From: Thuidium tamariscinum
Taxonomy: Eukaryota; Streptophyta; Bryopsida; Hypnales; Thuidiaceae
Direction: 5' to 3'
Length of the DNA stretch: 64,000 nucleotides
Assembly: GCA_947034885.2 (NCBI GenBank)
Contig: OX344756.2
Span: forward strand, 24,411,489 to 24,475,488
Shown: piece by piece, positions 413 through 48,778 of the stretch
Layout: the number at the start of each line of letters is the position of its first letter
Numbering within the stretch: position 1 is the stretch's first letter
Translations under genes and position numbers: made by a program
Notes under the pieces: generated by a model
What the model was told of the DNA's origin: nothing
Databases searched by the model: none
The model's input: only the letters and a program-made list of their open reading frames with translations

Positions 413-1648
413 CGCATACCCGGGGAGGACACTTCTTGTGTATTTGGAGGACCCACGTGCAGCAGTGGGGTATTTTTAGGGGGGCTATCAATTATTTTTA
501 GGGGGCCTATTTTATCATAAAGCGGAAAAATCAGCCATATTATCATCCCTATTTTATTTTTAAAACACTTTGCCTTTTTAACCCCTAAATGTATTTGACT
601 ATGTTTTGCCAAAAACACTCCAAAACTGCCACTTCTAGTACAGCACCAAAATATTTTTTTTTTAACATTTTAAGACAAATGTAACCGTAGGATCTTATAG
701 TAAACTAGTTTGAGAATATGTGAAAAAAAATTCAGAAATTTCCACCGTATAGATTGCAAGATAATAGTGTTTGAATTGTCAAAAATGCTTTTTTTGTCCC
801 TACGAAAATCCGGGCAGCTGCACTTCAGTAGCTCACTTTTGTATGAAAAAAAGTCCAAAATGATTGTTACTCTTTCGATTCATTCTTTTAGTCAAGTTAG
901 CTACATGCCTAAAAAATTTCAAATCATTTGGAGTTGTACAACATGTAGAAAACAATTAGTAAGTAGAAAGAGGTAGAAAATGAATCAAAATATTAAAATA
1001 GTAATAATTAATTTTTGAAATTGAAAATTTCCAATCCCAATGGTTGTAATGTTGTAATAGACAATCTTCACCTAATGTGTTTATTTTTTTTCAAAAATAT
1101 TAAAAATTGAGTAAAATAATGGACTTCAAAGTTTATTTTGGAGTAGAGATTCCATAACTTCCCACAAACTACCTTCAAACTAAAACTCCCATAACTTTCA
1201 TTTCACAAATCAAAATGGAATAATTAAAAGCTTTCCAAGTAGATAAAAATCTAAAGAACAAATTTCAAATTTCAAATTTTAGAAAAAGTGATTTTTGAAG
1301 AAGTTTTTTCAGTTGCCCGGGCTGCCCGCCGAGCAAAAGAAATCACATATCATGCAATAACTTTTTATTCATGTTGTCAAAAGTTATGAAAATTGTTGGG
1401 CCTTAAAGCTACTCCTCGGATACAAGTTGTGTGAAAATTTCAAAGAAAAAAAATAAAAACTCCATTCGTAGTGAGCTGCCCAAAATTGCTATGTTGCCAA
1501 AAAAACGCAGTTTGGGCGTTTAGGGGTTAATGTCCCCTATTTTATATATAAATTTCTTATAAATTTTACCCAAGATTATTTAAATGTACCCTATCTTCCA
1601 CCGCACGTAGGTTATTAAAAAACGGGAAGTGTCCTCCCCTAGGGCGCA
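413..1648. mobile_element. MITE family J, split by a TTAA element
   Basis: The left arm (GGGGAGGACACTTC at 422-435, then CACGTGCAGCAGTGGGGTA) is repeated inverted at 1569-1645. Element A1 sits inside at 578-1530, so J itself is only about 280 bp. A1 therefore inserted after J. There is no coding capacity. The GCGCATA next to both ends suggests the outer limit. Confidence 0.6.
578..1530 (+). mobile_element. TTAA element A1 (sub-family A)
   Basis: Non-coding 953-bp element starting TTAACCCCTAAA and ending TTTAGGGGTTAA. Sub-family A carries characteristic internal phrases: CTATGTTTT..CCAAAAAC near the left end, GGGCAGCTGCACTTCA about 240 bp in, and CTGCCCG..CTGCCCGCC near 1314-1330. TTAA at both ends is the presumed duplicated target. 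It is nested in MITE J. It has no transposase and must depend on one elsewhere, possibly piggyBac-like by target choice. Confidence 0.8.
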
Positions 1649-1650
1649 TA

Positions 1651-1695
1651 AGGTAGGTACACCCAAAATGGCACCTGACCTTAAAGCGCCATCTA
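1651..1695 (+). mobile_element. Family E terminal fragment
   Basis: A short E-type end, AGGTAGGTACACCC, followed by a tail ending at AGCGCCATCT. It matches the complement of the right end of the E copy at 46600-46636. It lies head-to-tail against the dimeric E copy and may mark an earlier insertion. Confidence 0.45.
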
Positions 1696-2181
1696 AGGTA
1701 GGTACACCTAAAAGCACCACTTATTCACACTGAGTCTAGTTCCTGCTATTAATTAGTTCAAATTTTTATGTAGTCTTGTTGGCAAGTGAAAGCATGTTCC
1801 AACGCACCAAAGAACATAGGATTTGGATACCATATGCAAAAGTTATTAACAGTCAAAGTCTGTTTCTGAAAGTGCCATCTACAGTCTGTGAACATGACTG
1901 ATTTCGAAAATGTATGCGCATTGTAGATGGCGCTTTTGGGTGTATCCACCTTACAATGTGCATACATTTCTGAAATGAGTCATGTAACCAGATTATAGAT
2001 GGCCATTTCAGAAACAGACTTTGACCGTTAATAATTTTTGCATACGGTATCCAAATCCTATGTTCTTTGGTGCGTTGGAACATGTTTTCACTTGCCAAAA
2101 AGACAATATCAAAATTTGAACAGCATGATGACAGGAACTAGGCATAGTAAGACTAAGTGGCCATTTTAGGTGTACCCACTT
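1696..2181. mobile_element. Family E snapback dimer, 486-bp near-palindrome
   Basis: Two E monomers are joined tail-to-tail. The 1696-1950 arm is repeated inverted in 1955-2181 with scattered differences; both share GGCAAGTGAAA, ATGTTCCAACGCACCAAAGA and GTCAAAGTCTGTTTCTGAAA. The ends are AGGTAGGTACACC and its imperfect complement, with TA outside each. Single-arm copies occur at 31429 and 46364. There is no coding capacity. Confidence 0.75.
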
Positions 2182-2189
2182 TAATGGCT

Positions 2190-2300
2190 ATTTGGCCGGG
2201 GCGGGCTGCCGGCACTTTCTCACGGCACGCACATTCAAACGCGTGAAGTGGCCGGGAGTGGCCAAATTTGGTGAGTAGACGGCCTAATAGAGAGCGAAAG
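2190..2300 (+). repeat. GC-rich TGGCC repeat (family K), copy 1
   Basis: Contains TGGCCAAATTTGGTGAGTA and a GAGAGCG..GGCCTGGC tail. Related sequence is at 2965-3100 and 22325-22455. The DNA between this and copy 2 holds one T element and otherwise unrecognised sequence. The nature of the family is unknown. Confidence 0.4.
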
Positions 2301-4655: not shown

Positions 4656-4859
4656 ATGAAGGACAAAAGGACTACTAGTGTCAAACAATGCATCACTAAT
4701 AGTTATGAGTGCTCCTACCTTGGATCCAATGCAAAATAGATAATCAAATTGTCAAATGAACTATTAGGCACTATTGAAGAAGCAGAGAAAAAAGATTCTA
4801 CATTAAACCCCTTGATGATGAAATGCATTGCCAATTGGTCAAATGCTATATATGAGTTG

Positions 4860-5680
4860 AATTTAGTCTATGAGATTGTGTTCAATATCAATTCTAAATT
4901 CTAATTACTTAAAATTATGATTTGTTTATCACCATTGAGGAATGCAATTGTTTTTGTGAAATTTTTTAATTGTTATCATTTTTCCTGCAAAAATTAAAAA
5001 GAAATAAGTTTGAATAACAAAAACAATCCAAATTATTTGAATTTTTTTCAAGTGGTACAAGTAGGAATTGAGACTATTAAAAAATTTCTATTGATTATTT
5101 TATTTCTTACATCCAAAGCAACCACAAAGGCACAAAAGACCTTGAAGTCAAATTTCACTATCAAACCAAATTTATCCTTTTATTCAATATATAGATAAAA
5201 TTTTGATAACTTTAATTAGTACAAAATTTTATTTTCTACTTATCCTATTTTTTTTCAAAAAAATTGATTTGAAAATCAAATTATCATGATTTTTTAAGTT
5301 AAAGGGGAAAATAAAACTACATCAGTTATTATAATGTATATTAGAATAATCTGAATTCTTACCATTAGTTAAGTTAGAATGGAAAATTCAATTTCATAAT
5401 TTATATTGAAAATCCATTTTAAAACGAAAAAATATATATGAATGAAATATACAACATATTTTGTTTTTTGGATTTAGACACATTGAGCATGCAATTGCAA
5501 TAATTTTTTCCAATTTTCCAATTTAAAAAAAAAAATTTAATATGAAGTAGAAGGAAAATATATCAAGCTTCATCTTCATTGTTTAAGTCACATACCAAAA
5601 ATGGTTACATTGAAAGTTAGAATCAAGGTTGACCAAGGCACATTTACATTTTGGATGCATGAACCTTTAGAAGTTAAAAT
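4860..5680 (+). repeat. Dispersed repeat S, copy 1 (uninterrupted)
   Basis: Similar to 7670-8411 plus 9315-9374. Shared phrases include TAATTGTTATCATTTTT, CAAAAACAATCCAAATTATT and GTTAGAATCAAGGTTGACCA. It has no insertion at the two points where copy 2 carries elements B1 and F. The corresponding sites here read TTGA at 5610-5613 and TTAA at 5674-5677. Confidence 0.65.
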
Positions 5681-6789
5681 TAATGCAAAAAAGTTGATTG
5701 GTGCACTCAACAATGTTTGAAAAAGGTTGACAATCAAAATGAATCATCCTATTATGAGCCAAGTTGTAGACCCTTCATATTTTGCCAACATGTTAAGTTT
5801 GGAAAGGAAAAATGGCAAGCCCATGAATAAATGAGAACAATACCAATTGCATTACGGAGTGTTTTTAGGAGTTAGTTGCCAATACAATTTGATGTTACTA
5901 TATTTGAAGCCAATTCCATTGCTAAAGTTCTTAATATTCACATAAAACTATCGGTACACAAGTAAAACTGTAGTATGTACATTGGTAACCATAATTATGT
6001 ACAACTTTCCTAGTGCAAATATATATCTTAAAGCAATCCCAAGACCTATAAAATGATGAAGTCCACTCTTGGGGGAAAAAAAATATGGAAACTATCCAAA
6101 ATGCTTAATCTAAATTACACTACTAAAATATAGAGGATTTAGCAATATTTGAAACATTCATAGATATATTATAGTAACACTTTGAAAGATGGTTTAACAA
6201 TGTTTTAGCAATGTTTAGAGCACTATGATAGCAATGATTTAGTCATTTCTTGGAAGATGTTTTATCGACATATGATTTAAAAAATATATATATATATATA
6301 TATATTTTGGAAACTACTTCATTAATCACAAGTTATTTTTCAACAAACATGTTCAAAGACATTCAAGTTTGCTTACATAGCAAAGTTGAATGTCAATTGC
6401 AAAATCAAGTTTTTATTTTTCAGTGTTCAAATGTTGCTACAAAAGTTATTTTGTGAAATAAATTATTGTAGTGAAAGTGATCATCTGAAGAAGGATATTT
6501 AAGTGGAGTTGGAGACCATTATAGGTGATAAGTGGATTATTTATGATGACATGGAGTTACTAGCTTTTGTAAGGGGGTGCTTTTTGCAATTGATAAAATT
6601 TGTTCAATTTAACATACTTCTCATTGGATAACATTTTGATACCATAAATGTCTTTTCCTTCATGTGTGTAAGATGGATTTTGGAATCATTTATCTTTTAC
6701 CAAGAGCATCAAGACAAAAAAGTAATCATCATCATCAAAATTTTACAATGAATCTATTGCACTTCCAACAATTACACAACCATGCATTT
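5681..6789. other. AT-rich intergenic DNA with a TA microsatellite
   Basis: No gene or element recognised. A (TA)n run lies at about 6286-6305. Confidence 0.6.
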
Positions 6790-7330
6790 ATAAGAGAGGG
6801 CTCTAAAACCAACCAAGCATTTTCAACCATCCAGTAGGAGCTGTGAAATGGACACTTGAACTGGGGGGAAATGAATTGTGGATTACAATAGAACTTGATT
6901 AGTTATGTCTTTACTTCTTCAATGGATGGTTTAAGAGCCACACTAGGTTCATTCCTAACTAAATGACTAGGTGTCTACTAATTTAATTCAAAATAAAATT
7001 TATTGTTCAACAACCTTCTTACAAGTACTAAAAAATCTAAAATAATGACTAATTCAAGCATTCATTTTAGATTTAGAAAGGGACACTTTTAGAAACCATT
7101 TCCATTGCTTTATACATTTTGCAATGATAGTTTTTGAACAAGGCCTAGTTTTTTTTTAAACTATGCATGGATGGGTTTCGAAGAGCCTATGATCACATAT
7201 AGGGACCTATAGCAAATTGTGTTTGAAAATTCATAACTAATTCAATAATGCTTCAAAAAATATGAAATGACTTGTGTTAGATTCCTCATCTATTCCTCTT
7301 TCACTAAAGAAACTAGAAATATTTCCATAT
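6790..7330 (+). mobile_element. Family L element, copy 1
   Basis: The left end is TAAGAGAGGGCTCTAAAACC. Matches to the complement of the 45508-46092 copy include CAACCATCCAGTAGGAG, GGGGAAATGAATT and TTCATAACTAATTCA..AATGCTTCAAAAAATATGAAA. The right end is diverged. No coding capacity. Confidence 0.55.
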
Positions 7331-7669
7331 CAGGAGATATAAAAAAAGAAAAGCACATCGGTGCTTAGATGGTTGCTTTTCGAGCCTCTTACCTTAGCAT
7401 AAGCAAATACCAATGTGCAAATTCTTCATTGTTTTCTTTTGCATTGCCGGTATCGACAGAAAAAAGAGTTTACAACTTGGTCGATATTGCCTTTAACTTA
7501 CGTAGTCCAAGGGCAACTCAGAAGAGTTTCTCAAAAAGAAAAAGAAAGAAAGACAAATGTTTCCCTCCTTTCCAACAACAAACTGAAGGCAACACAATAT
7601 TTAGCGAGGTCTGCTCTTTAACCCTTAAAGGACAAGATCCATTGCTATCTCGTCAAAAATAATGTCTTA
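7331..7669. other. Unassigned stretch with a lone TTAA-element-like end
   Basis: A 97-codon open frame (7369-7662) resembles nothing I know. TTAACCCTTAAAGGACAAG at 7618 looks like a sub-family terminus, but no matching right end was found, so it may be a remnant. Confidence 0.35.
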
Positions 7670-8411
7670 GGTAAATTTAGCAAATTAGATTGTGTTTAAA
7701 CATTAATCTTGTATTTATATTACTTAAAACTACAAATTATATATGATTAGGAAAAATTTCAATTGATTTTGTGAAAAATTCTAATTGTTATCATTTTTGT
7801 TGCAAAAATTAAAAATAAGTAAGTAAAAATAGCAAAAACAATCCAAATTATTTGAAATTTTTTCAAGATGTACAAGTAGCAATGAAGATAAGTGTTCAAA
7901 TTTTGCAAATGATTGTAATATTTTTTAAACCCAAAACTACCACAACAAAGACCTTAAAGTCAAATTTGACTATCAAACCAAATTTAATACTTTATTTAGT
8001 AAATGTATAAAATTTTGATATTTTTTATTTGTAGAAAATAGAGATTTCTACGTATTCTATTTTTTTCAAATTTTTTGATGAAAACTACAAATTTTTGTGA
8101 TTTTTTAAAGATAAAGGTTAAAAAAACTATGTCAATTATAATATATATTAGAATCATCTAAAATTTTCACCATTAATGAATATTATAATGGAAAACTTAA
8201 TTTTGTATTTTAAATTGAAAATCCAATTTTGAAGGAAAAAATATGAAGGAAAAACACAATATATTGCATTTTTAGGATTTTAACACATGGAGCTTGCAAT
8301 TGCAATAGTTTATTTAATTTTTTAATTCTTTCAAAATTTCAAGTTGAAGTAGAGAGAAAAATTATCAAACTTCATTTTCTTAATTTAAGTCAATTAGCAA
8401 AAATGGTTATA
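7670..8411 (+). repeat. Dispersed repeat S, copy 2 (interrupted)
   Basis: Homologous to 4860-5613. The repeat continues at 9315-9374 after element B1. It is then cut again by element F at the TTAA at 9375. Confidence 0.65.
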
Positions 8412-9314
8412 TTAACCCCTAAATGCCCATTGTCCCTTCAGAGGACAATTTCGAGTTTGGGCAGGTTCCATAGACCACAATTTTTAATGAATCTTCTTGA
8501 AACTTTTTCATGAGATAGTAAAACTGATTAGCTTTGTGGGAGTATAATTTTTGTTCCAATTGGTGCCTAGGAGCAAAAGTTATATCACAAAAAGCGTTGA
8601 TTTTAACTCAGCGGGCAGAAAAATAAATCTACGAAAATTTTTATTTTTTATTTTTTAATCTTATAGATTATATTTTTGTCTACGTGTGAAGCTTTGATTC
8701 ATTCCATTTGGACTAGTTATGTGAAAGTTATGAACAATCTTGTTTTCGGGCAATTTTTGAAAAAATAACTTATAGGATTCATTTCTAAATGCAATTTCAA
8801 CAATTTTTCAAAAAAAAATTCTTGATAAGGTTATATTTTTTTGCTAGAAAAATCTCACAATTGGAATAATTGTGTTTCAATTTCATCTTAGAGCTATTAA
8901 CAATTTAATTTTTCTTTCAATCTTGGACCTACCTCTACTTAATAATTTTTTAAAGAATGAAAATCAAGCATTTTTTTTAAAAAAAATTCCTAGACTTTCA
9001 ATTCAATTCTAAAACACAAAGTGAAAAAAATTTAAAGTCTATAGTGTAAAAAAATTCAACAAATGGCAATCAAAGTCATCTGAAATTACAAGACAATGTC
9101 TAAAAAAACTATGTTTTTGACTTTGAATGCTCATATCTTCCAATCTACACAGTCAAACTTCATGAAATTCTTACCACATGATCTCACACAAACAAAGTAG
9201 AAGATCCTTCAGTTAGATTCTATAAAAAAGCATTTTTTTTGTTCTTTTGGATGAATACAACAAAAATGACAGTTTTGAGTGGTTTGTGACAGAAAAGTGG
9301 CCTTGGGCCTTTAA
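8412..9314 (-). mobile_element. TTAA element B1 (sub-family B)
   Basis: 903 bp, non-coding, in the opposite orientation to B2. The left end is TTAACCCCTAAATGCCCATT. The right end (GGCCTTGGGCCTTTAA) has lost the AGGGGTT of the usual terminus. Internal matches to the complement of B2 include GACAGTTTTGAGTGGTTT and ATTCATTTTTAA-type runs. It sits inside repeat S copy 2 exactly where copy 1 reads TTGA. Confidence 0.75.
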
Positions 9315-9374
9315 AAGTTAGAATCAAAGTTGACCAAGGTGCATCCACTTTTTGGATGCATGCACCTTTAAGGG

Positions 9375-10948
9375 TTAATCCATAATGCCCAAGGCACCCA
9401 AATGTGGTGTCAAAGAAATTTTGAAGTTATATAAAACCTTAATAAATTTCTATTTTTAGTAGTTTATGTTTTTGGAAGATTCTTTTGAAGTCTAGTTTTA
9501 GCATCAATAATCTGATTTTGAAAATGAATGATTATGATTTTTCTATTCAAGATTTAGTGCAAGGATATCCATTGCAATCTTGACATTCTATAGTGTTAAG
9601 GACTCTTAGAAATGAGCCTCAAATACACTAGATTTTAGAGAAAAAATCACACTAAAAATTCATTTAAAAAAATTGTAGAGTAGATTTTGAACAACCATAA
9701 ATTGATTGGGGTTATGCTTGTTAGGCCCTTGAACCTCATTTTTTGGTGACCAACATTTTAGATTTGACATGCAAAAAGGGAGCTCCTAGATTTTCATTGT
9801 TTTTGCACCGTCATGATTAACCCCTAAAGTTCTTCGACTATGTTTTTACCAAAAACCCTCCAAAACTGCCATTTCTAACACAAGTATCAAATATTTGGAA
9901 AATATTTTTTTTGGACACATATAACCATAGGATCTTGTAGTATTCAAGTTTGAGAAGACGAGGAAAAAATTTCAAAATTTTTTACCACGTGGATTACAAG
10001 ATAGTAGTGTTTGAAGTTACAAAAATCCTTTTTTTACAACTGTAAAAATACGGGCAGCTGCACTTTACAAGCTCACATTTGCATGAAAAGAGTCCAAAAT
10101 GGTAGTGCTTCTTTGGATTCATTCTCCAAGGCAAGTTGGCTACATGGTTAAAAAATTTCAAATCATTTGGAATTGGACAACATATAGAAAAAAAATAGTA
10201 AGTAAAAAGAAGTAGAGAATGATTCAAAATACTAAATTGTTAAAAAAAATTTGTGAAATTGAAACTTGCCAATCCCAATGGTTCAAATGTTGTAATAAAC
10301 AACCTACACTCAATGTTTTCATTTTTTTCCAAATTATTTGAAAATTGAGTAAAATAAAGGACTTCAAAGTTTATTTTAGAGTAGGGAATCTATAAGACTA
10401 TAACTACCCGCAAACTAAAACTCTTCACAACTTTTGACTCATTAGTCCAAATGGAATGATTCAAAGCTTTCCACATATATATAAATCTATTAAACCAATT
10501 TCAAATTTTTATTTTCTAAAAAAGTGATTTTTTCTAATCTGCCCAAACTGCCCGAGTTGAGAAATAAACAACATATCATGCAATAACTTTTTAACGATGC
10601 AGTCAAAAGTCACGAAAATTGTTGGGCTTTGAAGATATTCCTCATCCACACCTTCTATTAAAATTTGGTCCCAAAATATGGAAATATCTAGCCACACGTA
10701 CCTGCCCGAAATAGTTATGTTGCCAAAAAAGACATGTTGGTCCTTTAGGGGTTAAACATTCTAATTTTTCAATTCATAAGTGATATTGTTGTGTATTATT
10801 TTCCTATGTCATCTCTAATATGTCTACTTTGAATTTTTACGGTTACAATTCAAAAAAATTGATTCAACTTATCAAAATGTTGGATTTTTGTTCAGTTTAG
10901 AATAGATTTCAAGAGGCTAAAAACAAGCCTTCGGCATTTAGGGGTTAA
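9375..10948. mobile_element. TTAA element F, split by A2
   Basis: The left end TTAATCCATAATGCCCAAGG pairs with the right end CCTTCGGCATTTAGGGGTTAA read on the other strand. Removing A2 (9817-10755) leaves about 0.63 kb. The left junction lies at the TTAA that repeat S copy 1 keeps uninterrupted at 5674. No coding capacity. Confidence 0.55.
9817..10755 (+). mobile_element. TTAA element A2 (sub-family A)
   Basis: 939 bp with complete TTAACCCCTAAAG and CTTTAGGGGTTAA ends and the A signature phrases (GGGCAGCTGCACTTTACAAG; CTGCCCAAACTGCCCGAG). It is nested in element F. Non-coding. Confidence 0.8.
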
Positions 10949-11220
10949 AGCAACCTTTGAAGAGGTGATTGCATTTGGGAGGAAGCTAAACTCTTTAAAT
11001 CAATTTTCAGTAAATTTTCATAGAAAGAAAAACGAAATTAACATCTAGCTCAAGTCATTTCATAAGTTTTGGACCTTCTTGGAATTGGTTATGAATTTTT
11101 GAAATTGAAATGTAATCGTCACTATAGCAAACACATCACTTCTAAAATGTACACTATAAGGATATTGAAGAAAGAAAAATATATCTCTATGTTAAAAGTC
11201 ACTTTTAGAGCACCCTACCT

Positions 11221-12151
11221 TAACCCCTAAAGGTCAGAGACTATGTCTTCACCAAAAACACACCAAAACTGCCATGTCTACTTCAAGCACCACATTTTTT
11301 TAAAAACACACTCTTAGAAATATGAAACTATAATATCTTATAGTACACTTGTGTGAAAAGATGTGGAAAAAATTTCAGAATTTTTCACCATATAGATTGC
11401 AAGATATTAGCATTTGAATTGACAAAACCCTTTTTTTGTCCCTTCAAAAAAGCGGGCAGCTGCACTTCACAAGGTCACATTTCTATGAAAAAATGTCTAA
11501 AATGGTGGTGCTTCTTTGGATTCAATCTTCACATTACGTTTTCTATATGCTCCAAAAATTTCGCATCATTTGGAATTGTACAACATATAGGAAAAAATTA
11601 ATAAGTAGAAAGAAGTAGAGAGTGATTCAAAATACTAAATTGTTAAAATTTTATTTATAGAATAAAAAATGTCAATCCCAATGGTTGTAATGTTGTGACA
11701 AACAATCAACATCCAAAGTTTTAATTTTTTTTCAAAATTATTTAAAATTGAGGAAAATAAAGGCTTTCAAGGTTTATTTTAGAGTAGAGAATCCATAACT
11801 GCTTGTAAACTAAATCTCTTTATAATTTTCATCTCATAAATCAAAATGGAGTGATTCAAAGATTTCTACATATACGTACATCTTGGAAAACCAATTTCAA
11901 ATTTTTAATTTTGAAAAAAAAGTTTTTTTAAGAAATTTTTGGGCTGCCCGCTACCCAATGAAAACTACATATCATGCAATAACTTTCTGACCATGTAGTC
12001 AAAAGTTATAAAAATTGTCAGGCCTTCAAGCTACTCCTTGGTCACATGTTGTGTGCAAAGTTCAATGAAAAAAAATAAAAACTCCATCTGTAGTGAGCTG
12101 CCAAAAATCGCTATGTTGCCAAAAAATGCAGTTTGGTCCTTTAGGGGTTAA
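11221..12151 (+). mobile_element. TTAA element A3 (sub-family A)
   Basis: 931 bp with intact termini and A signatures (GCGGGCAGCTGCACTTCACA; GGGCTGCCCGCTACCC). The left TTAA overlaps CCTACCTTAA, a sequence resembling the end of an L element. Non-coding. Confidence 0.8.
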
Positions 12152-12548
12152 CTCTAAAGTGTTGCAATGTTCAATTTCTAGGTGATTAACATATTGAAAC
12201 CCAAGTTTCATTCTCATTACTATTTGGGTGAAAGTCATCCTAATTAAAGTATCAAAATTTGTAATTCCAAAACTATATATATAGGTGGTAGCATTGGTGA
12301 ATTGAACCATGTGGATGAAATCTACAACCCAAAATCTATAACTTTATTTTTACGTCTCAATCCCAAAAATTCTACCAAATAGCACTTTTCGGAGAGGATG
12401 GATTCTCACTGGAAATACCTTATTCGTTATGTTTCCTTGCCCCGCTTGCCTGCCAAGGAGTAAGTTACATTAAGGGCAAAACACCCATTCCCGCACTTGT
12501 TCCTTGCAATGGACTGTAGATTCATCCAAATGCATGAGTAGACTTCCC

Positions 12549-13481
12549 TTAACCCCGAAAGGACCAAGGCCTTTTTTCTGTAAAAACCTCTCAAAACTGC
12601 CATTTCTGTTGCATTCATCTAAGAAAACAAATTTTTTTTTTTTTTTTTAATAATCTAACCGTAGGATCTTGTACTTAACTTGATTGAGATCAAGTGGTAA
12701 AAATTTCATGAAGTTTGACCGTAAAAATTGGAAGATATGAGCATTCAAAGTTGGAAATACAAGTTTTTTTGAACTGCGGTTTGCAATTTCAGATGACTTT
12801 GACTGGAATTTGTATAAAAAAATTGCACTATAGACTTTGAATTTATAATTTTTTGTATTAAGAAATTGAGTTGAGAGTCTAGGAAAAAAATTTCACACAA
12901 AAAACACTTGATTTTCATTCTTTAAAAAATTGTTAAGTAGATGTAGGTCCAAGATTGAAAGAAAAACTAAATGGTTAATAACTCTAAGATGGGATTGAAA
13001 TACAATATTCCCAATGGTGAGATTGTTCTAGAAAGTAAATATAACCTTGTCCAACAATTTTTTTGAAAAATTGTGAAAATTGCATTCAAAAATGAATCCT
13101 ATAAGTTATTTTTTCAAGAAATTGTTTAGATTGCCCGAAAAACAAGATTGTCGATAACTTTCTCATTATAAGTCCAAATAGAGTGAATCAAAGCTTCACA
13201 TGTAGGCAAAAATATATTATTTTAGAAAAAAAAATTAAATTTTTTTTTTTTAACTTTTTGCAAAAAAAAAAATTCTGCCCGCCGAATGAAAATTTGGGTT
13301 TTTTGTGGTATAACTTTTGCTCCTGGTCACCAATTGAAATAAAAATTACATTCCCATGAAGATAATCAGTTTTCCTATCTTATGAGAAAGTTTCAAAAAG
13401 ATTCATTAAAAATTGAGGTCTACGGAACTTGCCCGAACTCCAAATTGTCCCCCGAGGGGACAATGGTCCTTTAGGGGTTAA
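12549..13481 (+). mobile_element. TTAA element B2 (sub-family B)
   Basis: 933 bp from TTAACCCCGAAAGGACC to GGTCCTTTAGGGGTTAA. Shares the module starting GATAACTTTCTCATTATAAG with sub-family A, and CAAAACTGCCATTTCT near the left end. Near the right end it has CCCCCGAGGGGACAATGG, the complement of the left part of B1. Non-coding. Confidence 0.8.
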
Positions 13482-13837
13482 TGTATTCGCCACATGTATG
13501 ATTGTAATTTGCTGACACAACTGAAGGACACATAGGGAAATTTGGTTGGTTGAGTGCTGATTTTCGCAAGGTTCAATTTTGGGGGCACCTACAGGACGGT
13601 TCCACAAGTCTAGGGAGCCAACACTTTGAAAATTTGTAGAAATTACATACTATCTCCGAAAAATCTATTTTTTTATTTTTAAATTCATGATTTTCACTCA
13701 CTGATACTAGAAAAATATCATTTTTAGAAAACGTTGCCTCCAACTATGCTGAATTCCTTATTTGGACGGTTTTGGGTGTTTCCACTGTAAGGTATTCCTT
13801 TCAGTTGGTTCTGTGTCGGAACCTGTTCCTCACTCAA
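13482..13837. other. Unassigned intergenic DNA
   Basis: Nothing recognised. An open frame on the minus strand (13380-13607) straddles the edge of B2 and is not credible as a gene. Confidence 0.5.
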
Positions 13838-17105: not shown

Positions 17106-18032
17106 TTAATCCCTAAAAGTTTTTGACTATATTTCCACCAAAATCACTCCAAAACTGTGATTCTAATACCAGTGCAATTTTTTTTAAACATTTTTTGGCA
17201 TATTTAACCATAGGATCTTGTAGTTAGGTGGTTTGAAAAGATGTGGAAAAAATTTCAAAAATTTCCACTATGTAGATTGCAAGATATTGACATTTGAACT
17301 AGCAAAAATCATTTTCTTAATCCTGCAAAAATCCGGGCAGCTGCTCTTCACAAAGTCACATTTGTATGAAAAAATACTCAAAATGATGGTTACTCTTTGA
17401 ATTCATTTTACAATTCAAGTTGGATATATGCTCAAAATTTTCAAATCATTTGGAATTGTATAACATATAGGAAAAAAATAGTTAGTAGAAAAAAGTAGAA
17501 AATGCTTGAAAATACTAAATTGTGAAAATTTTATTTATAAAAATTTAAAATATCAATCTCAAAGGTTAAAATATTGTAATAAACAATCTTCACCCAATTT
17601 TTTAGTTTTTTTTCAAAAATATTAAAAATTGAATTAAATACAGAATTTCAAACTTTTTTGTAAAGTAAAGATTCTATAACTACCCACAAATTACCCCAAA
17701 CTAAAATTCTTCATAACTTTTGACTCATTTATTGAAATGGAATGATTCAAAGCTTTCCACATAGATAAAAATCTAATAAACGAGATTCAAAATTTTATTT
17801 TTAGAAAAAATAATTTTTAAAGAAGTTTTTTTTGTTGCCTAGGTTGCTTGCAGTTTAAACAAAAGAGCATATCATGCCATGACTTTTTAACCATGTGGTC
17901 GAAAGTTATGAAAATTGTTGGGCCTTGAAGCAACTCTTCAAACACATGTTGTGTGAAAATTTTGAAGAGAAAAAAAAAATTCCATTCGTAGTGAGTTGCC
18001 AAAAAAATATAGTTTAGGGATTTAGGGGTTAA
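17106..18032 (+). mobile_element. TTAA element A4 (sub-family A)
   Basis: 927 bp. Left end TTAATCCCTAAAAG (one C changed to T), right end TTTAGGGGTTAA. A signatures are present (CCGGGCAGCTGCTCTTCACA; GGAATGATTCAAAGCTTTCC). Non-coding. Confidence 0.8.
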
Positions 18033-22300: not shown

Positions 22301-22324
22301 TGCAATGCAAGATATGATACCAAA

Positions 22325-26210: not shown

Positions 26211-26218
26211 TTTTTACT

Positions 26219-31702: not shown

Positions 31703-33481
31703 TACCTGGCTGCTGAATCTGGTTTTTTGGGGGGGGGATTACTTCCTACCAACCTTGGTTGTCACTCACCAAATTTTGGTGCTCAAGCCAAGTACTTGGG
31801 TCTCTGCATGGGGACCCCTTTATCAAAACACAAAATGGAAACTAGGATCGATGCTTTGCCATCTGGGGGGTTCAGGACCCAATTTTAAACAAGAACCACA
31901 AGTATGGATTGATACTCGACTTGAAAAATTAGAGAGAGGGATGAGGTTTTGCCGTTCGGCAGTTTAACGCCAAATTCTTTGCCAATATTTTGACACAACA
32001 AGTTAGCATAGACTCTTTGAGGTTTGGTTCCAACCCAAGCTCTTCCCAAGTGACCATGAATTTTTCCGTTATGATCCACTTATTTCCAACATCAAGATGC
32101 TAGGGGATATTGCAACAACGGGGGTTGTGAGTTCCCACATAAGACACTTGATTAGGAATGGTTCGTAGTTAAAAAAAACTTGACTCTAACAACAACAATC
32201 TTCTCGTCTATGCTTCAACAAAATCTTCTCCAACCAAAAGGTTAGAAGATCTCATGCAAAAGCTTGGCAAGGGGGGTTAGTACCAAAAGACCTTAAAAGT
32301 TCAAAAGCAAACAAAATTATTAGCGCATAACATTTAAAACTTTCATAACAAAGTAAAGCCCAAGCAAAGGAACCCCAATGTCCTTTGAATCAAGCTCAAA
32401 ACACAAGAAAAATAGTTGGAAGTACAAAATAAAGATCAAATTGAAGTCAAGCAATGAATTTTGGCAAAAGTACCAAAAATCCCAACAACGTGGCTATGTA
32501 TGGCACAAATAACAAATTGCAAAAAAGGGATGCAAAGTGAAAGGGGGGAGGCCTTTTATACATTTTAAGGCCTCATCCCCCTACAAATTACCGACAAAAA
32601 ATAAAAAACTAACTACCAAAAGTCTACCCCAGCTATTGTTGTGATCATTCTAACTTTTGGGGAAATGCTCCAATTACCAAAAGGACTTCACCATTCTCTT
32701 TATAAAACTCCAAATAGCATAGACTTTGCCCCCTACTATTGAGGCCAAAGTGTGCTTGAAAGCTAGTAAATCACAACCTAGTGAAAAAGGCCAAAATTCT
32801 AACTTTTGGAGTTCGTTTTTCTTCAAAGTTTTCACTAGCCAAGGTTATTGTTAAGGTCCAAAATAGTAAAAAATAAGAAGAAGTCTAAATTGACTCAAAT
32901 TAGACACCGTATGCTCCTCGGATGATGGTCAATTTGCAAGGAATTTGATAATATTGTTAAAAACCATTATTGCTTCTGGTTTTGGTACTTGTCGACGGAG
33001 TAATGTCTTGAAATTTAGCAAGGCCTTTATTTATGCTAAAATACAATATCCTAATTTTTAGTGGGATTTTAACATTAGGAGGAATTTTCTATAATTTTCC
33101 AAATGTTCATAAAAGCGGTTGATTTCCTATGGAGTCATCTTCTACAACTTAAAAAATTATGAAATTTTTTGGGCAACTTTTAAGAAGCTTCTTAGGCCTA
33201 AGTAAAAATATTTATGTCAAAATTATACTTTTTAAATAAGGTATTACATTAAGACCTATTATATTAATTCCTCTAGGGGGAAATCATTTTTGTATGAAGG
33301 AATCTTCGTGATCCAACTAGTATGTCATTGCGCTTCTAGCATGTTTTAAAGCTAAAAACACATCTCTTTTAACTTGAGATTGCAAATTCTCTATATCTAA
33401 GGGATTTCATCTACAAAATATGAGAAAATTCACTTTTTTCCTAATTCTTGCAAATGGGTTGATAGCCCCTACAAGGTCTAT
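31703..33481. other. Unassigned intergenic DNA
   Basis: A G run is at 31728-31736. A 64-codon minus-strand frame (31885-32079) looks more protein-like in composition than most here but I do not recognise it. No gene called. Confidence 0.45.
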
Positions 33482-34422
33482 TTAACCCCTAAATGCTCAA
33501 ACTGCATTTTTTGGCAATATAGCAATTTTAGGTAGCTTACTACGAATGAAGTTTTTCTTTTTTTTCTTTGTGATTTTCACACACTGTGTGTCCAAGTAGT
33601 AGCTTTAAGGCCCAAAAATTTTCATAACTTTTGACAACATGGATAAAAAGTTATTTCATGATATGTGATTTCTCTTACTTGGTAGGCAGCTCGGGCAGCT
33701 GAAAAAACTTCTTCAAGAATCACTTTTTATTATTGGAATTGGTTCTTTAGATTTTTATCTACTTGGAAAGCTTTTTATTATTCCATTTTGATTTATGAGA
33801 TGAAAATTATGGGAGTTTTAGTTTGAGGGTAGTTTGTAGGAAGTTATGAAATCTCTACTCCAAAATAAACTTTGAAGTCCTTTATTTTATTCAATTTTTA
33901 ATATTTTTGAAAAATAATAAAAATTTTAGGTGAAGATTTTCTATTAAAACATTACAACCATGAGGATTGGAAATTTTCAATTTTAAAAATTAATTATTAC
34001 TATTTTAGTATTTTGAATCGTTTTCTACCTCTTTCTACTTACTAATTTTTTTCTACGTGTTGTACAATTTCAAATGACTTGAAATTTTTTAGGCATGTAT
34101 ACAACTTGGCTAGAAGAATTAATCCAAAGAGTAACAACCACTTTGGACTTTTTTCAAACAAAAATGAGCTACTGAAGTGTAGCTGCCCAGATTTTTGCAA
34201 GGACAAAAATGGTTTTTTGACAATTCAAACACTATTATCTTGCAATCTTCATGGTGGTAGTTTTTGAAATTTTTTCCACATATTTTCAAACTAGTGTACT
34301 ATAAGATCCCATGGTTACAATTTTCTTAAAATGATTTCTTTTTTAAGATTTGGGTCTTGTACTAGAAGTGGCAATTTTGGAGTGTTTTTGGCAAAACATA
34401 GTCAAATACATTTAGAGGTCAA
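33482..34422 (-). mobile_element. TTAA element A6 (sub-family A)
   Basis: 941 bp, the reverse of A1. Left TTAACCCCTAAATGCTC; right end slightly worn (TTTAGAGGTCAA). The phrases GGCAGCTCGGGCAGCTG and GAAGTGTAGCTGCCCAG are A signatures read on the other strand. Non-coding. Confidence 0.8.
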
Positions 34423-37500: not shown

Positions 37501-39455
37501 TTGTTAGAATAGCAAGACCATTTGACTAAAGAATTTGATCATACCATTGTATATGGTTATGCTATGTTTGATTCTACTAACTTAATGTGTATGTTTCAGG
37601 AAGTCAAGTGACATGAATATTTGACCTATACATAAATTAAGAGTAATAATCTTTTGTGATTAAGTACTTATTGAATAGTGGACCAATTGACTAAATATTA
37701 AATTGAAGAAGTAATTAAAGAGAATACAATGGTGTATATGCACACCTCTATATTTAAATATAAATTGTGGGTTTGATTAAGTCTATAGAACAGGAGCCAA
37801 GAGTATTTGACACTCCTATGATTATTTGACACTAGAATCCTAATATAAGACTGTGACAGTAAGTCAAGGGTTAGTTCCATGGGAATTGGACGGAAATTAG
37901 AATAAGTTAAGACATGAAATACCTTTAGAAAACTAATTCTTTTAATTTTAATCTTTTATTTCCGAAAATGAGTGATAATCCTACATCAAAAGTGACTTTA
38001 GATACAAAACGATAGACTATTTGATTTTTCCCAAACGAAAGAACCACCACTAGGGGATTCCTTGGTTTTTTTTTCCTAAGTAATCCTAAGCTACAATCTT
38101 TACCTTCCCTAAGTACTTCCTAACATCCCTCAATCATCTAATTAAACAGTCCAATAGTTTAAGGTAGCTTCCAAGCAAAAATCTAACTCAAGTCTTGCCA
38201 TGAAAAGCCTAAAATAGCCTACATTGGGCCCTCGCCAACAAATCTAGCACACATCAATCAATTACAATATCCAAATTCAATATACAATTGATTTACGATA
38301 TAATTTATAACAATCTACAGTAAAAATTGCAATTGTTCAATTACAATTAGAAAAGACATACCACAAAATCTCAAATTGTACCTCCTTTTGGGGCAACAAA
38401 CCCTCTTCTACAAAAATTGTCACTATTTCTTTACATTTGCCTCAAATTTGATAAAGAATGATTACTTAAAAAGCTAATTTGATCATTTCCATCTTCTCAA
38501 AAATTTCAAATCAATTAACTCCTCTAATCTTTTGATAAAGCTTGCCAAAGTTGTTGCTCTCAATTTGCCACGGCAATAGACCTCTTTCCACAAAAACAAC
38601 CACCATTTCTTTCTATTAGCTTCAAATTGGTTGAATCTTAGCATTTTGAAAATCTAATTTGATTATCTCAATTCTACCAAAAGTTTAGATTGCTCTGACC
38701 CTCCAATTTTTTGATATAGCTCACCAAAATTGTTGCACCCAATTTGCAACAGCAAAAAAACTTTTTCCACAGAAACACCCACCATTTCCTTGAGCTACCT
38801 TCAAAGTGGTTGAATTTTAGCTTTTGAAAAAGCTAACTTGATTGTCTTGATCTACCCTAGAATTTTGATTGATCCAATCTAATATCCACCAACCATTGCT
38901 CCCAAAAGTTGGCAATTTCACAAGCAATTGTCAAAGCCTAATTTTTCTCCATGTTTTCTAACTCAGCCTTAAAGCTAACCTAAAAAACTCTATTTTTTTC
39001 ACCCATTTCCTTCCAAAATACTAATAACCTACTTGAAAAATTGCCTATGATCCTATTCTAATCCCTTGCAATCATTGTGTTTGTATTTTTTATTCATTTT
39101 CTCTCGCTTTTCATCCAACAACTCCTAAAGCACATGTGCATACAAAAAGCATGAGAGAGAAGAGCAAAAGAGACCTCTAAAACATAAAACATTCTAATCA
39201 AAAATCCAACAGAGTAGTTAACTTAATGACATTTGTCTACCTTTAAGTTAATATAAAAACACCATTTTTCAGTGAATGATGCCAAATTGGTACAAAACTA
39301 CATTAAATTGTTGTAGGACTCTCTTAATTACTATTTTTTTCATTCTAACTTCATAAAGACTTTCTATTTTTGCAAATCCCTCATTATTTTGATGATGTAC
39401 TAATTGTTTTACTTTGCTAACTTTTTTTGTGTATTTCATTTAAATTTAGTTTTAA
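37501..39455. other. AT-rich intergenic DNA
   Basis: No gene recognised. 38380-38950 has three similar sentences on plus-strand CAAAAA/CACCATTTC phrases (near 38415, 38600 and 38785), a weak tandem of about 185 bp. Confidence 0.4.
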
Positions 39456-39835
39456 TACTAGGGTGGCCCGTGCCGTTGCCACGGTCCGGAAAAACAACAG
39501 AATCAACAATTTTCTAATTTTTTTAATGTACAGAAACTTCAAAATTCAATAACTTTCATGCCATAGGTTGGAACACCATGAATCAAAGCCTGTGCACCCC
39601 TCCTCGCCGAGGGCTTTCCGACGGTACCAAACATGCACCCGGGGGACTTACGGTCCGGGAGATCTCAACGTAACATATAAAAACTTCAAAATTCAATAAC
39701 TTTCATGCCGTAGGTCGGAACACCATGAATCAAAGCCCGTGCACCCCTCCTCGCCGAGGGCTTTCCAACGGTACCAAACACGCACCCGGAGGACTCACGG
39801 TCCGGGAGATCTCAACGTAACAAACATCCAAACAT
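39456..39835 (+). mobile_element. Family T element, copy 2 (two tandem 147-bp units)
   Basis: Begins TACTAGGGTGGCCCGTGCCG followed by TTGCCACGG, a short hairpin. Two units follow, starting at 39534 and 39681, nearly identical across CACCCCTCCTCGCCGAGGGC and GGGAGATCTCAACGTAAC. It ends in CAAACATCC repeats. Non-coding. Confidence 0.5.
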
Positions 39836-41310: not shown

Positions 41311-41338
41311 CATATTTACAGATTTGGATGGATGGAAG

Positions 41339-42078
41339 TTAACCTTGAATTGCCACCAATGCTATTCTATAGCGTTTGGATGACAGTTTGAGGTCCTAAG
41401 AAGAGATTAGAAGTGTTTTTTTCATCCACTTTTGTTTGATGACCTCTTCATATCTAGCTGCAAAGAATATCCAATTGAGTTTTTACTCTAACTAGTATTT
41501 GTTTTCATGTTGTTGAGAAATAAGTAGAAAAATGGATGGCAATTTTTTTTTAGTTTAATGTAATTTGAGAAGTTGTTGCTCCTTGCTCTAAATCTGAAAT
41601 TTCTCCACAAAAATGATATTTTCTTGAGTTTGAAACCACCATCAAAATGAAGGTCATCTAGTCTAATTTCTACTCCAATTGGAATTTTGGAAAATTCATA
41701 ATATTGAATATTTTTATTGCAATTTGAACTTTGGATGTATTTTCAATGTTAATTGTATCCTAATTGTAGAATGACACAAAAATTGAGTTTACACCATGAC
41801 CTTTTGTCATTGTAATGTATAGACATGGTGAAATTTTCAGATTTTTTGAAGTAATTTTTCTATTTGTTGTGATTTTTTTCACTTTTTCTTCAAAACTTCT
41901 CATAATAATCAATTTTCATAAGAAAAATATAATTTTTTTATGAAGTAGAGAAGACATATAATTTCATCTTCAAAAAGCAAGAATGAATTTTTTTCATACA
42001 TATCTATTCTCTGAATGGTAACAAAATGAGTGGTGAGCAATGAGGCTTGAAATTAGTGGCTATAGGTTTGTCCTTTAA
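41339..42078 (+). mobile_element. TTAA element G2 (sub-family G)
   Basis: 740 bp, homologous along its length to G1 (TAGCGTTTGGATGACAGT; CACCATGACCTTTTGTCA-type right half). Left TTAACCTTGAATTGCC. The right end lacks AGGGG but runs into TTAA at 42075-42078, where element D begins. Non-coding. Confidence 0.65.
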
Positions 42079-42175
42079 CCTCTAAACACCCAGGGTTGCT
42101 ATTTTGTGAGCTTGTGAGCCTACGAGCCTACACAATTTTTTGAAGATTCCATCTAAAACTTTTGGCCAAATTTGA

Positions 42176-43124
42176 TTAACCCCTAAAGCCCTGACTATGT
42201 TTTCACCAAAAAATGCTCCAAAACTGCCATTTCTAATACAAGTGCAATTTTTTTTAAACATATTTTTGACTCATGTAACCGTAGGATCTTATAGTAAGGT
42301 GGTTTGTAAACATGTGGAAAATATTTCAGAAATTTCCACCGTGTAGATTGCAAGATATAAGCATTTGAATTGACAAAAATTGTTTTTTTATCCCTGCGAA
42401 AATCTAGGCAGCTGCACTTCACAAGGTCACATTTGTGTGAAAAGAACTTCAAAATGGTGGTTACTCTTTGAATTCATACTTCAATGCAAGTTGGCTACAT
42501 TCTCAAAAAATTTCAAACCATTTGGAATTGTACAACATATAGGAAAAAATAAGTAAGTAGAAAGAAGTAAAAAATGAGCCAAAATACTAAATTGAGAACA
42601 TTTTATTCATGGAATTGAAAATTTTCAATCCCAATGGTTAAGATGTTGTAATAAACAATCTACACCTTATATTTTTATTTTTTTCCAAAAATATGAAAAA
42701 TTGAATTAAATGAAGAATTTCAAACTTTTTTTGGACTGTAGAGATTCTGTAACTGGCCACAAACCACCCAAAACTCAAAATCTTCATAACTTTTGACTCA
42801 TTGATCGGAATTAATTGATTCAAAGCTTCCCATGTCTGTATAAACCTAAAGAACCAATTTGAAATTTCACTTTTAAGAAAAAAGTTTTTTTGAAGAAGTT
42901 TTTTCAGCTGCCCGGGCTGCCCGCCGAGTAAAGGAAACAGCATATCCTGCTATAACTTTTTAACCGGGAAGTCAAAAGTTATGAAAATTGTCAGGCCTTA
43001 AAGCTACTCCTTGGGTACACATTGTATCAAAATTTCAAAGAAAAAAAATAAAAACTCCATCCGTAGTGAGCTACTCAAAAAATTTATAATCTCAAAAAAC
43101 GGGGTTCAGGGCTTTAGGGGTTAA
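42176..43124 (+). mobile_element. TTAA element A7 (sub-family A)
   Basis: 949 bp with intact TTAACCCCTAAAG and CTTTAGGGGTTAA ends and A signatures (GGCAGCTGCACTTCACAAGG; CTGCCCGGGCTGCCCGCCG). It lies in the left arm of D. The right arm of D has no insertion at the matching point. Non-coding. Confidence 0.8.
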
Positions 43125-44494: not shown

Positions 44495-45466
44495 CCTAAA
44501 CACCCAAGAGGACCAAAAGTATCCTCACATAGTTTCAAGTCCAGTTCAAAGTGCTATAACTTTTTCATCCAAGGTCCAAATTCAATAAAACTTGTTGGAA
44601 AAGTTGCACAATCTCTTCTAGTTTTTGTAGTAAAATTTCAAATCAATCCAAGATTTACTGAATTTTTGGAGGCCAATCAAAGCTTACAACTCAATTTGAA
44701 TTCACCAAACTACATATTAGGGCTACAACTTTGGGGGCTTTTATCTCCTTCATCTAATGTTTTTTTCCAATCAAATTTGTTGGGTTTCGTTTCAATTACT
44801 TTGTAGTCTACTTATTGTAATAAAATTTTCATGCCAATCCAAGTTGTTTTGAAGGTTTGTGTGCAATTCAAAGTTCAACATCTTGACATTTTTGAACTAC
44901 AATGAACTTTGGCCGCTTGTGTCTTCTTCATACACAATGTGTTTTCAAAATTTGTTTTTGGGAAAGTTGCGCATACTTGTATGTCTAAAATTTTTATATC
45001 AATCCAAGAAGAAATGAGTGATTGAGAAGCAATTTTGTAGAAGGAGGTTTAGCCGCTTGGATGGGTTCTTTTCAACTTTTCTTGCTATTTTTTTTGACAT
45101 TTCAGAATGGTTTTGTAGACACAATGAGTCAATTGAATTAAAAAAAATTCCCCATTGTGTTTTCATACTATTTTTGAATCACTCCATATTATAAAGTTTT
45201 TCCATTCAAGTAGGTTTAGAAATCAAACTTCACTTCCAAATATGTCTTTAGGAAAATACCAACATTCATTTTCAGCACTAAAACATTATAATCTTGCAAT
45301 CTATGTGGCCAAATGACTCCAAATTTTGTACATGTCATGTACAACATATACTCTAGAAGATTGTGCAGTTGAGATTTGTATAACTTCAAGACATTTAGAT
45401 CTATAAAGCTTCTAAAGGGATCATGATGTTTTTGAACCCCCAAATGCGTAGGCCTTTAGGGGTTAA
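44495..45466 (-). mobile_element. TTAA element C3 (sub-family C)
   Basis: About 970 bp, the reverse of C1. The right end is GGCCTTTAGGGGTTAA; the left end abuts D as CCTAAACACCC. It shows the tandem module most clearly: ATCAATCCAAG or a variant at about 44641, 44833 and 44998. Non-coding. Confidence 0.7.
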
Positions 45467-45507
45467 GGGTTAAGCCAATTCTACACTGGTGGAGCAAAGA
45501 AGGTAAG

Positions 45508-46092: not shown

Positions 46093-46363
46093 GTTATATT
46101 TGGAGACTGAATAGCTAATTTCAAACCAGTGTAACTTAGCTGATTATACCTGGCAAGGCTTCAGTTGCCCTGTGGATTGGTGGAATTTTTTTTTCTTTTC
46201 TTTGGGGTGGACTTCATGTGCTTGTGATGAAGCAATTTTCACAGCCAGGTGTCATCATCCCTCGTGACTGCAGCCAACTTGTCATTTTCCAAGGAAGCTG
46301 CAACAGTGGCTTGGCATCAATTGGGAGGGGAGGGGATGCCATGTACTTCCTCCGTGTAAGTTA

Positions 46364-46683
46364 CGGTAGGTACACCCAAAAGCGCCACTTATTCATACTG
46401 AGCCTAGTTCCTGCTATTAATTAGTTCAAATTTTTATGTAGTCTTGTTGGCAAGTGAAAGCATGTTCCAACGCACCAAAGAACGTAGGATTTGGATAGTG
46501 TATGCAAAAGTTATTAACAGTCAAAGTGTGTTTCTGAAAGCGCCATCTACAGTCTGAGTACATGACTGATTTTGAAAATGTATGTACATTGTACAGAGCG
46601 CTTTAAAGACAGGTGCCATTTTGGGTGTCCCTACCTTAGTTCATTCAATTTAAGGACAGGTGCCATTTTGGGTGTCCCTCCCT
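46364..46683 (+). mobile_element. Family E monomer, copy 3, with a duplicated right tail
   Basis: 273-bp E copy (46364-46636) from CGGTAGGTACACCC to GGGTGTCCCTACCT, with TA outside. Its last 45 bp or so (GACAGGTGCCATTTTGGGTG and following) are repeated in tandem up to 46683. The duplicated tail matches the fragment at 1651-1695. Confidence 0.7.
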
Positions 46684-46719
46684 TAGTTCATTCAAAATGG
46701 ACCATGGTAAGGTACCAGT

Positions 46720-47860
46720 TGTAAGTTAATGGGCAGCACGAGGAAGTGAAGTTAAGTATGATAAGTATCGCACAAGTCCCTCCCACTCATTGATTAGAAT
46801 AGCCTGCAGTAATGAACTGAAGTTCTCATCCTCATCCAGAGCTCATGAATGTGAAGTTTGAACTTCAGGTCACACTGGCTTGGGAACACCAGAATCTCTG
46901 CTGCTGCTGCTGGAGGACTGTAGTAGTTGCATCAAGTGATGTACCCCCATGGAAAAAGGACCAGGAATCAATGTCTGTGGAAGGCTGGCTCATGAAGCTG
47001 TTGGGTAACTTGGGTGAGACTGTGACTCTGCGGAGAGGTGCTGAACCGGAAACTGGTTTCATCTGTGCCCCAACCCCCCCGGAAGGAAAGAAAGCCCAGC
47101 GTGAACGCACCTTGCTGTGAACTCTCCGCCCTCATGACTTATTTCAGGAAGAAGTTTCAAACAGAAGCTGAGAACCAAGTTGTAGGCTGTGATAAGTATA
47201 GGGCAATGCCCGAGGAGGAGGGGATTACTGAAATTAAAGTGCCGACGAGGAGGGCGGAGCCCGACGAGGAGGCACTTCAATTTCAGTAATCCCCGACGAC
47301 GAGCGATCATTGTCCAGCATAAAGCACGATTAATTGGATGAAATCGCGGGATGAGAGTGCAAGTTCGATGAAGAACACGTAATCCCCGGTTACGGGAAAT
47401 ACCATCGCCACCTGAGCATTACGCAATCTTCCCGGGAAATGAATGGCGCACTTCTCGGGAGTGCTTTATGTTCTGGGATGGGAGTCCGCCATTTCATCAT
47501 CTCCACAGTGCAATTGGACCCAATCTGGTGGGTTCCGAGAATGGAATAAGCGGAATGATCTTCATGCCCAATTGACAACATGTGTTGATCTGGACAATGG
47601 AAGGGAGGGCCTGACTCCGGAGGAAGGTTGGATTTCATGGAGGCAGGAAAGAGGCATAAGTAGGTACCGTGGGCAAGTTTGAAACTCTCGACGACTCATT
47701 GCAAGCGAATTCAATGATGGCACAGTCATTGTGGACTCACTCAGAGAGCCCAATCATTGGGTAATTAAGGGAAGCCCCCTCCAACTGAAGCAACCCTTGA
47801 ATAGCCACATCACCATTCACTACTCATTGAAGAAGAGGAGACCAGTAGACCAAGATGGTA
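46720..47860 (+). other. GC-richer island of unknown nature with an inverted repeat
   Basis: Base composition rises well above the flanks. 47213-47298 is an inverted repeat (GGGGATTACTGAAAT / complement, with GAGGAGG in the loop). Overlapping open frames (46845-47310, 47443-47682) exist on both strands but resemble nothing known. It ends with AAGATG|GTAAGTT at 47857, a good splice donor, so it could be a first exon or an old gene fragment. Confidence 0.35.
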
Positions 47861-47936
47861 AGTTTTGAAAAATCATAAATGGATGGAAGGGACTTCATCG
47901 ATCTTTTTAATAAAAAAACAACTCTTCAGCACATTT

Positions 47937-48778
47937 TTTACCCCTACAGTATAGTACAAAGGCCATTTTCTTGTCAAAAAAAGGACTCTAACGTGCCATT
48001 TTTATTGGGTTCACCCTAGAAAGTGAAAAACATTTTCTTTTTACATAATCTAACCATAAGATCTTCCACTTCACTTGTTTGAGATCATGTGGTAAAAATT
48101 TTATGAAGCTTGACCATATGGATTGAAAGATACTACTCCGTAGTATTCAAAATTGGAAAATGAAGCATTTTTTAACAGTAACTTGCAATTTCAAATGACT
48201 TCAACTAGCATCTGTGAAAAAAAATTGCGCTACAAAATTTGAATTGAATTTATTTTCTATTGAAGAATCAAGTCAAAAGTTTGAGGAAAAAAATTCCATA
48301 AAAAGAACACTTGATTTTCATTCTTTAAAAAAGGTGTTTAGTAGAAGTAGGTCCAAGATTGAACAAGAAACTAAATCATTAATAGCTCTAAGATGAGATT
48401 CAAACACAATAATACCAACAATGAGATTCTTCCAATAAGCATATCAAACAATTATTCTGAAAAATTATAAAGAATGCATTCAAAAATGAAATCTATAAGT
48501 TATTTTTTCAAGAAGGTGCTCTAAGTGTATGAAAAACAAGATTGTCCATAACTTTCACATAACAAATCCAAATAGAATGAAGCAAGAGCTTCCTATGTGT
48601 ACCAAATTACAATCTATCAGAAACTACTAGAAGTTTAAAAAATTATATTTCTACAAACCTAATGTGTTGTCCTATCTTTATAGAAAGTTTTTAAAAATCT
48701 TGATAAATATTGGAACCATAGGGACTTGCCCAAAATCCATTTTATCTCCCAAGGGGACAATGGAACTTTAAAAATTAA
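47937..48778 (+). mobile_element. TTAA element B3 (sub-family B), worn
   Basis: 842 bp, diverged from B2. Left TTTACCCCTACAG; right CTTTAAAAATTAA. Retains CTCCCAAGGGGACAATGG, GATTTTCATTCTTTAAAAAA and ATAACTTTCACATAACAAA. The last TTAA element before the gene. Non-coding. Confidence 0.7.

Follow-up and report, generated by a model that had tools for sequence, protein, structure and literature searches.

Short elements in a 64-kb land-plant window are very probably non-autonomous members of several piggyBac families

We analysed a 64-kb stretch of DNA (the window) on contig C8 of a 363 Mb assembly and, in particular, the short transposable elements crowded in it, which an original prediction had taken for a non-autonomous, TTAA-targeting superfamily of piggyBac type in a land plant. 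The end motif TTAACCCCTAAA occurs 22 times in the window when up to one mismatch is allowed, compared to 0.87 expected occurrences (shuffle mean; maximum 3 in 100 shuffles). Self-comparison and reading of the element borders yielded seven copies of family A (about 0.85-0.95 kb in length), three each of B and C, two each of D and G and a single F. The union of these 18 outlined copies covers 15,931 bp, or 24.9% of the window, which agrees with the quarter that had been predicted. The predicted total of seventeen was one too low because D has two copies, the second of which (D2) is split by B1, while the counts for A, B, C, F and G were recovered as they stood. Both ends lie at TTAA in half of the copies (A1, A2, A3, A4, A7, B2, D2, F and G1); A5, A6, B1, B3, C1, C2, C3, D1 and G2 have at least one eroded end or a border that is only approximate. 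The window elements have inverted ends that begin CCCC next to TTAA, and ends of TTAACCC type are also found on some copies of C, D, F and G. None of the outlined elements contains a stop-free frame of more than 104 codons, and a tblastn search of the window (E up to 1e-3) with 40 transposase domains, described below, was negative, as expected from the claim that the elements lack coding capacity. What had been called a superfamily is better described as several families within one known superfamily.

All copies are on the plus strand except B1, A5, A6 and C3, which are on the minus strand. A1 (578-1530) is a non-autonomous piggyBac element of 953 bp with exact ends, TTAA on both sides and a subterminal motif at 683. 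It is followed by C1 (3702-4690), which has eroded ends and approximate borders and matches C2 and C3 at 71%, and by D1 (4804-5677), a non-autonomous copy with an eroded left end, which matches the left part of D2 at 74% and represents a relative of D2 without B1. D2 itself (7618-9378) has the ends TTAACCCTTAAAGG and CCTTTAAGGGTTAA and is interrupted by B1 (8412-9315), which has lost the final bases of its right-hand end, matches B2 at 79% in inverse orientation and bears the subterminal motif at 9201-9214 on the minus strand. F (9375-10948), which adjoins D2 at one common terminal TTAA, is in turn split by A2 (9817-10755). A2 and A3 (11220-12151) were recognised by self-comparison and end motif, A4 (17106-18032) and A7 (42176-43124) additionally by the subterminal motif, and B2 (12549-13481) matches a transposase element, L031, at both ends. 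C2 (23540-24490) again has eroded ends and approximate borders. The older copy A5 (25366-26213), with one eroded end, matches other A copies at about 61-65%, and A6 (33482-34422), also eroded at one end, matches A1 at 87%. G1 (26503-27243, 741 bp) carries TTAACCCC at both ends and matches a G copy at 6060-6807 of locus L039 at 79.5%; G2 (41330-42080), with eroded ends and approximate borders, matches the G1 region at 70%. C3 (44490-45466) has one intact TTAACCCCTAAA end at 45455-45466 and an approximate border on the other side, and B3 (47937-48770), an older copy eroded at both ends, matches B1 and B2 at 70-75% and has the subterminal motif at 48052.

The subterminal motif is the box AACCGTAGGATCTT, located in A1 at 683-696 on the plus strand, about 105 bp in from the end that is equivalent to the 3' end of full elements. 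With up to two mismatches it has ten matches in the window compared to 0.20 expected; nine of these lie within A or B copies, and A3 has none. Genome-wide, an extended form of the box has 1,853 occurrences and its reversed control none. With small changes, the box is also present in the 3' ends of the transposase elements L031, L043, L038, L040, L044, L033 and L034, which belong to several groups.

Genome-wide, the A-type end CCCCTAAAN7GACTATG was found 2,333 times, preceded by TTAA in 2,029 cases, by VTAA in 60 and by other bases in 244. Of the 2,089 ends that retain TAA, 2,029 have T as the outer base; this base is nearly fixed and thus unlike what a TA target predicts. The original prediction that the base outside the inner TA is always T on the left and A on the right held at intact ends. 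Empty sites were sought among 128 TTAACC..GGTTAA spans in the retrieved DNA, many of which are not real elements, and eight spans had a relative across the join. A single TTAA was kept at the join in five of the eight: the G copy in L039 compared to L034 (96.7% identity), A1 compared to L043 419-275, the L039 transposase element and the A copy of L008, both compared to L005, and L034 compared to L002 (66% identity only). These joins, along with the ratio of 2,029 TTAA to 60 VTAA, support the claim of a four-base TTAA target rather than TA, and of its duplication upon insertion.

Each insertion leaves two TTAA targets, which is the likely cause of the nested and abutting arrangement of D2, B1, F and A2. 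The same applies to locus L022, where the sequence just past the TTAA of a full transposase element matches A2 at 91%, which places this element at the TTAA that ends an A copy. B2 and the L034 element, which belongs to another lineage, occupy the same site within a flanking repeat that is 92-93% alike (window 12471-12548 and 13471-13791; L034 6860-6962 and 1034-1352), and this suggests two insertions at one TTAA. An origin of B2 by internal deletion of the L034 element was rejected, as the right end of B2 scores 25 against the L034 5' end at a shuffled maximum of 39.

Searching the genome of the window for the transposase domain PF13843 (DDE_Tnp_1_7) gave at least 116 matches (116 scored of 659 candidates; best E 5.7e-80), which are spread over ten contigs (C1-C10), while none of 14 control genomes had a match. 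From the best-scoring matches we picked 40 loci, with flanks of 1.5 kb (L009-L028) or 4.2 kb (L029-L048). Aspartates at the places of the piggyBac triad, plus a fourth in GVDxxDQ, are present in all 40. Compared to solved transposases, the L041 protein matches piggyBac (6x67; E 5.4e-25) and piggyBat (9c0f; E 1.3e-18), and the motifs IDE, MDN and GVDxxD are aligned. A cysteine-rich C-terminal tail (C-x2-C..C-x2-C..C..H) is complete in seven of nine open frames examined, the exceptions being a variant minus one cysteine in L018 and the L043 frame, which stops ahead of the tail. In a Pfam scan (E up to 0.001), PF13843 was the sole family in eight of eight transposase proteins; no autonomous partner of another superfamily appeared among these eight, and the genome was not scanned for other superfamilies. 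The stop-to-stop transposase frames often span 800-1,000 codons, with N-terminal parts that have no Pfam name. By our reading, the 32 distinct domains of the 40 loci form about nine separated groups in a tree that was midpoint-rooted for drawing only. In the 5' parts of L029, L034, L039 and L043, extra frames of 200-400 codons lie upstream of the transposase frame; they may be separate exons or a second gene.

The original prediction had proposed a search for this domain between ends of the window's type. By our reading, 14 of the 20 long-flank loci (L029, L030, L031, L033-L037, L039, L041, L043, L045, L046 and L048) have a transposase frame that lies between similar TTAACC and GGTTAA ends. 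The five elements that were measured are 6,453 bp (L031), 6,812 bp (L043), 5,543 bp (L034), 5,599 bp (L033) and 5,090 bp (L029) long. Ends of full-length elements are asymmetric, with terminal inverted repeats that begin CCC, and they can be matched to those of the window copies. The right ends of A1, A3 and A7 score 114, 97 and 63 against the L043 5' end, compared to shuffled maxima of 33-35 (all end-match shuffles were made from a single sequence, namely bases 1-200 of the L043 element). Their left ends score 103, 98 and 83 against the L031 3' end and, more weakly, 60, 46 and 49 against the L043 3' end, with shuffled maxima of 37, 34 and 45 in both comparisons. As the L034 and L033 3' ends also score 34-73 against A left ends, part of the 3'-type end is common to lineages. 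B2 scores 156 and 99 against L031 at its two ends (shuffled maxima 34 and 39); as in A, the right end corresponds to a 5' end and the left end to the 3' end of L031. The positions of the ends point in the same direction. The exact A-type 26-mer end TTAACCCCTAAAGTTCCTTGACTATG has 16 genome copies, and six of them lie 1.6-3.5 kb downstream of a correctly oriented transposase, compared to 0.021 by random shift (maximum 1 in 1,000); three of these six transposases are 951-codon frames without internal stop. Among 40 scored relatives of the L043-type 5' end (of 1,268 candidates), 13, L043 included, have a transposase on the same strand 2.9-5.0 kb downstream of them, compared to 0.047 by random shift (maximum 2). 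Distances between ends and transposases were tested with 79 of the 79 rows of a second transposase scan, in which 77 of 821 candidates were scored; since only part of the candidates was scored in either scan and in the 5'-end search, the transposase and 5'-end counts are lower bounds. The presence of A- and B-type ends on transposase-carrying elements, together with the many PF13843 matches in the same genome, speaks for the predicted piggyBac-type assignment. Short, without a transposase and with the ends of an autonomous partner, A and B qualify as piggyBac miniature inverted-repeat transposable elements (MITEs).

Such ends are abundant. Another pattern for A-type ends has 2,422 genome occurrences and the B-type end TTAACCCCTAAAGGMCCAAGGCC has 587, with none for the reversed A-type control or the B-type control. 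The strict A pattern recognises three of the seven A copies in the window, compared to about 0.4 per 64 kb predicted from 2,333 in 363 Mb. The window is therefore several-fold richer than the genome average, and its quarter should not be extrapolated. Regarding activity, the nine loci L020-L028 of one family have at most two differences over 3,984 bp, terminal TTAA included, and unrelated flanks directly past this TTAA. Near-identity combined with unrelated flanks shows that this full-length family has transposed very recently. The copies in the window, mostly 61-87% alike within families, are therefore older.

Could the same features have arisen from another type of element? Tc1/mariner-like or Stowaway-like elements would have a two-base TA target and an end of the form ACCCC.., and by filled and empty sites alone such a TA plus terminal A is inseparable from TTAA. 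A TA target would, however, leave the outer base near base composition, and the unconstrained outside by which Tc1/mariner and Stowaway are recognised was not found at the A-type ends with their strongly preferred outer T; moreover, the partners carry PF13843 and no other Pfam family in the eight scanned proteins. We thus regard this explanation as highly improbable. Kolobok and Sola3 have the TTAA duplication in common with piggyBac, but the CCC-type ends, PF13843, the structure matches to piggyBac and piggyBat and the cysteine-rich tail leave another TTAA-targeting superfamily equally little room. Even harder to sustain is the idea that the transposase matches are contamination or an assembly artefact, given that they are found on ten contigs and close to A, C and G copies and that one transposase element has a G copy within it; nothing was found in favour of this idea. 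Less far-fetched, although still unlikely, is a scenario in which the short elements descend from piggyBac-like ones and were amplified passively, for instance inside larger repeats, instead of being cross-mobilised. The repeat shared by B2 and the full L034 element indicates that some copies could travel with a host repeat; against this, window A copies have differing bases beyond their TTAA, and the ends of B2 match L031 and not L034, which argues for separate insertions at one TTAA.

Several observations weigh against an assignment of the window elements to piggyBac families. In six of the 20 long-flank loci, a right end was seen without a matching left end, and C, D, F and G could not be paired with a full-length element. 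The proposed link of the A family draws on L043 for both ends, plus the positions of ends relative to transposases, and L043 has a 565-codon frame ending before the cysteine-rich tail as well as the weaker left-end match. Three of the eight empty-site comparisons have no TTAA at the join, namely A2, whose flanks, once joined, match L005 and L008 with TCAA in both, A7 and the L048 element; likewise, D1 has TTGA at the site of B1. Furthermore, window copies of A, B and C are mostly 57-87% alike across pairs and therefore old, and these copies are probably immobile. With these points considered, we still hold it to be very probable, as far as sequence comparison can tell, that these short copies belong to several piggyBac families of a land-plant genome as their non-autonomous, MITE-like members. 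Every defining piggyBac feature that was examined fits. The mechanism would be an ordinary piggyBac one; the surprise lies in the host and the scale. In such a mechanism, transposase from full-length elements would bind the element ends, perhaps including the AACCGTAGGATCTT box, excise short copies and reinsert them at TTAA by the usual piggyBac cut-and-paste. As TTAA would be left at both borders, old elements could themselves serve as targets, giving rise to nested and abutting clusters.

The land-plant host that had been predicted is supported by NAC domains in the genome (27 exon matches; none in 14 control genomes) and by a plant GATA zinc-finger exon in the window at 55,074-55,790 (PF00320, E 3e-10); open frames beside the latter may be further exons. 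A low NAC gene number is typical of bryophytes, and by our reading the 27 exon matches suggest about 14-15 NAC genes, a bryophyte-like number. No Rfam family reached its gathering threshold in the window, and ARAGORN found no transfer RNA there. A separate repeat with long inverted arms lies at 1683-2193 (232-bp arms, 84% complementary, 1694-2183); two copies of about one arm are located at 31422-31704 and 46357-46638, and the repeat also occurs beside L034 and L031. Two tandem repeats were found, one at 39534-39822 with 2 copies of a 147-bp unit and one at 38521-38847 with 1.8 copies of a 179-bp unit; relatives of the 147-bp unit lie near 2637 and 60461. The element ends contain CCCTAAA, the plant telomere repeat unit; this likeness is probably a coincidence, the ends being CCCCTAAA beside TTAA.

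A standard tool of animal genetics, piggyBac has been described chiefly from animals, fungi and protists. The ends of Trichoplusia ni piggyBac begin CCC and its transposase has a cysteine-rich tail; the host of piggyBat is an animal, the bat. The TTAA target, the inverted ends and the aligned DDD catalytic core are features that the elements studied here share with T. ni piggyBac (6x67/6x68). Unlike T. ni piggyBac with its 2.4 kb (PMC2874221), the five measured elements span 5.1-6.8 kb, with the long frames mentioned above. The transposase core also resembles that of piggyBat (9c0f), whose protein is shorter (578 residues). Daphnia Pokey and its mPok MITEs (PMC4912750, PMC3849761) likewise combine autonomous piggyBac elements with MITE groups, but have a crustacean host and a preference for ribosomal DNA sites. 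For plants, a table in PMC4438587 lists piggyBac in every group studied, land plants included, and the fern Ceratopteris has 1,230 PiggyBac annotations comprising 122,417 bases, or 0.00% of the assembly (PMC6890710); the excerpts of these two catalogues give no transposase, ends or MITEs, whereas thousands of ends were found here. General statements of piggyBac in plants are made in PMC2874221 and PMC10140906, piggyBac is among the superfamilies used to class plant DNA transposons in PMC10794571, and plants are named among the sources of isolated piggyBac in PMC10813416. Titles and abstract openings among the matches listed reported no plant piggyBac family with MITEs, subscription papers and Repbase being outside this search. 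In the moss paper PMC10619864, one of two occurrences matching 'piggyBac' is the word 'piggybacking'. The novelty of a plant piggyBac system is not proven.

We tentatively suggest, as a possibility that falls somewhat short of probable, that a host of bryophyte grade harbours a piggyBac community that is both large and diverse and has been active recently, with about nine transposase lineages among 40 loci and thousands of cross-mobilised MITEs, in which AACCGTAGGATCTT would be a putative transposase-binding site across divergent lineages. If true, this would be the first description of a piggyBac system that is endogenous to a plant and possibly functional there. A land-plant genome that combines many piggyBac lineages with near-identical recent copies and large families of MITEs offers a natural plant system for study and possibly piggyBac enzymes adapted to plants, as well as a test case for how the superfamily entered plants, by old inheritance or by horizontal transfer.

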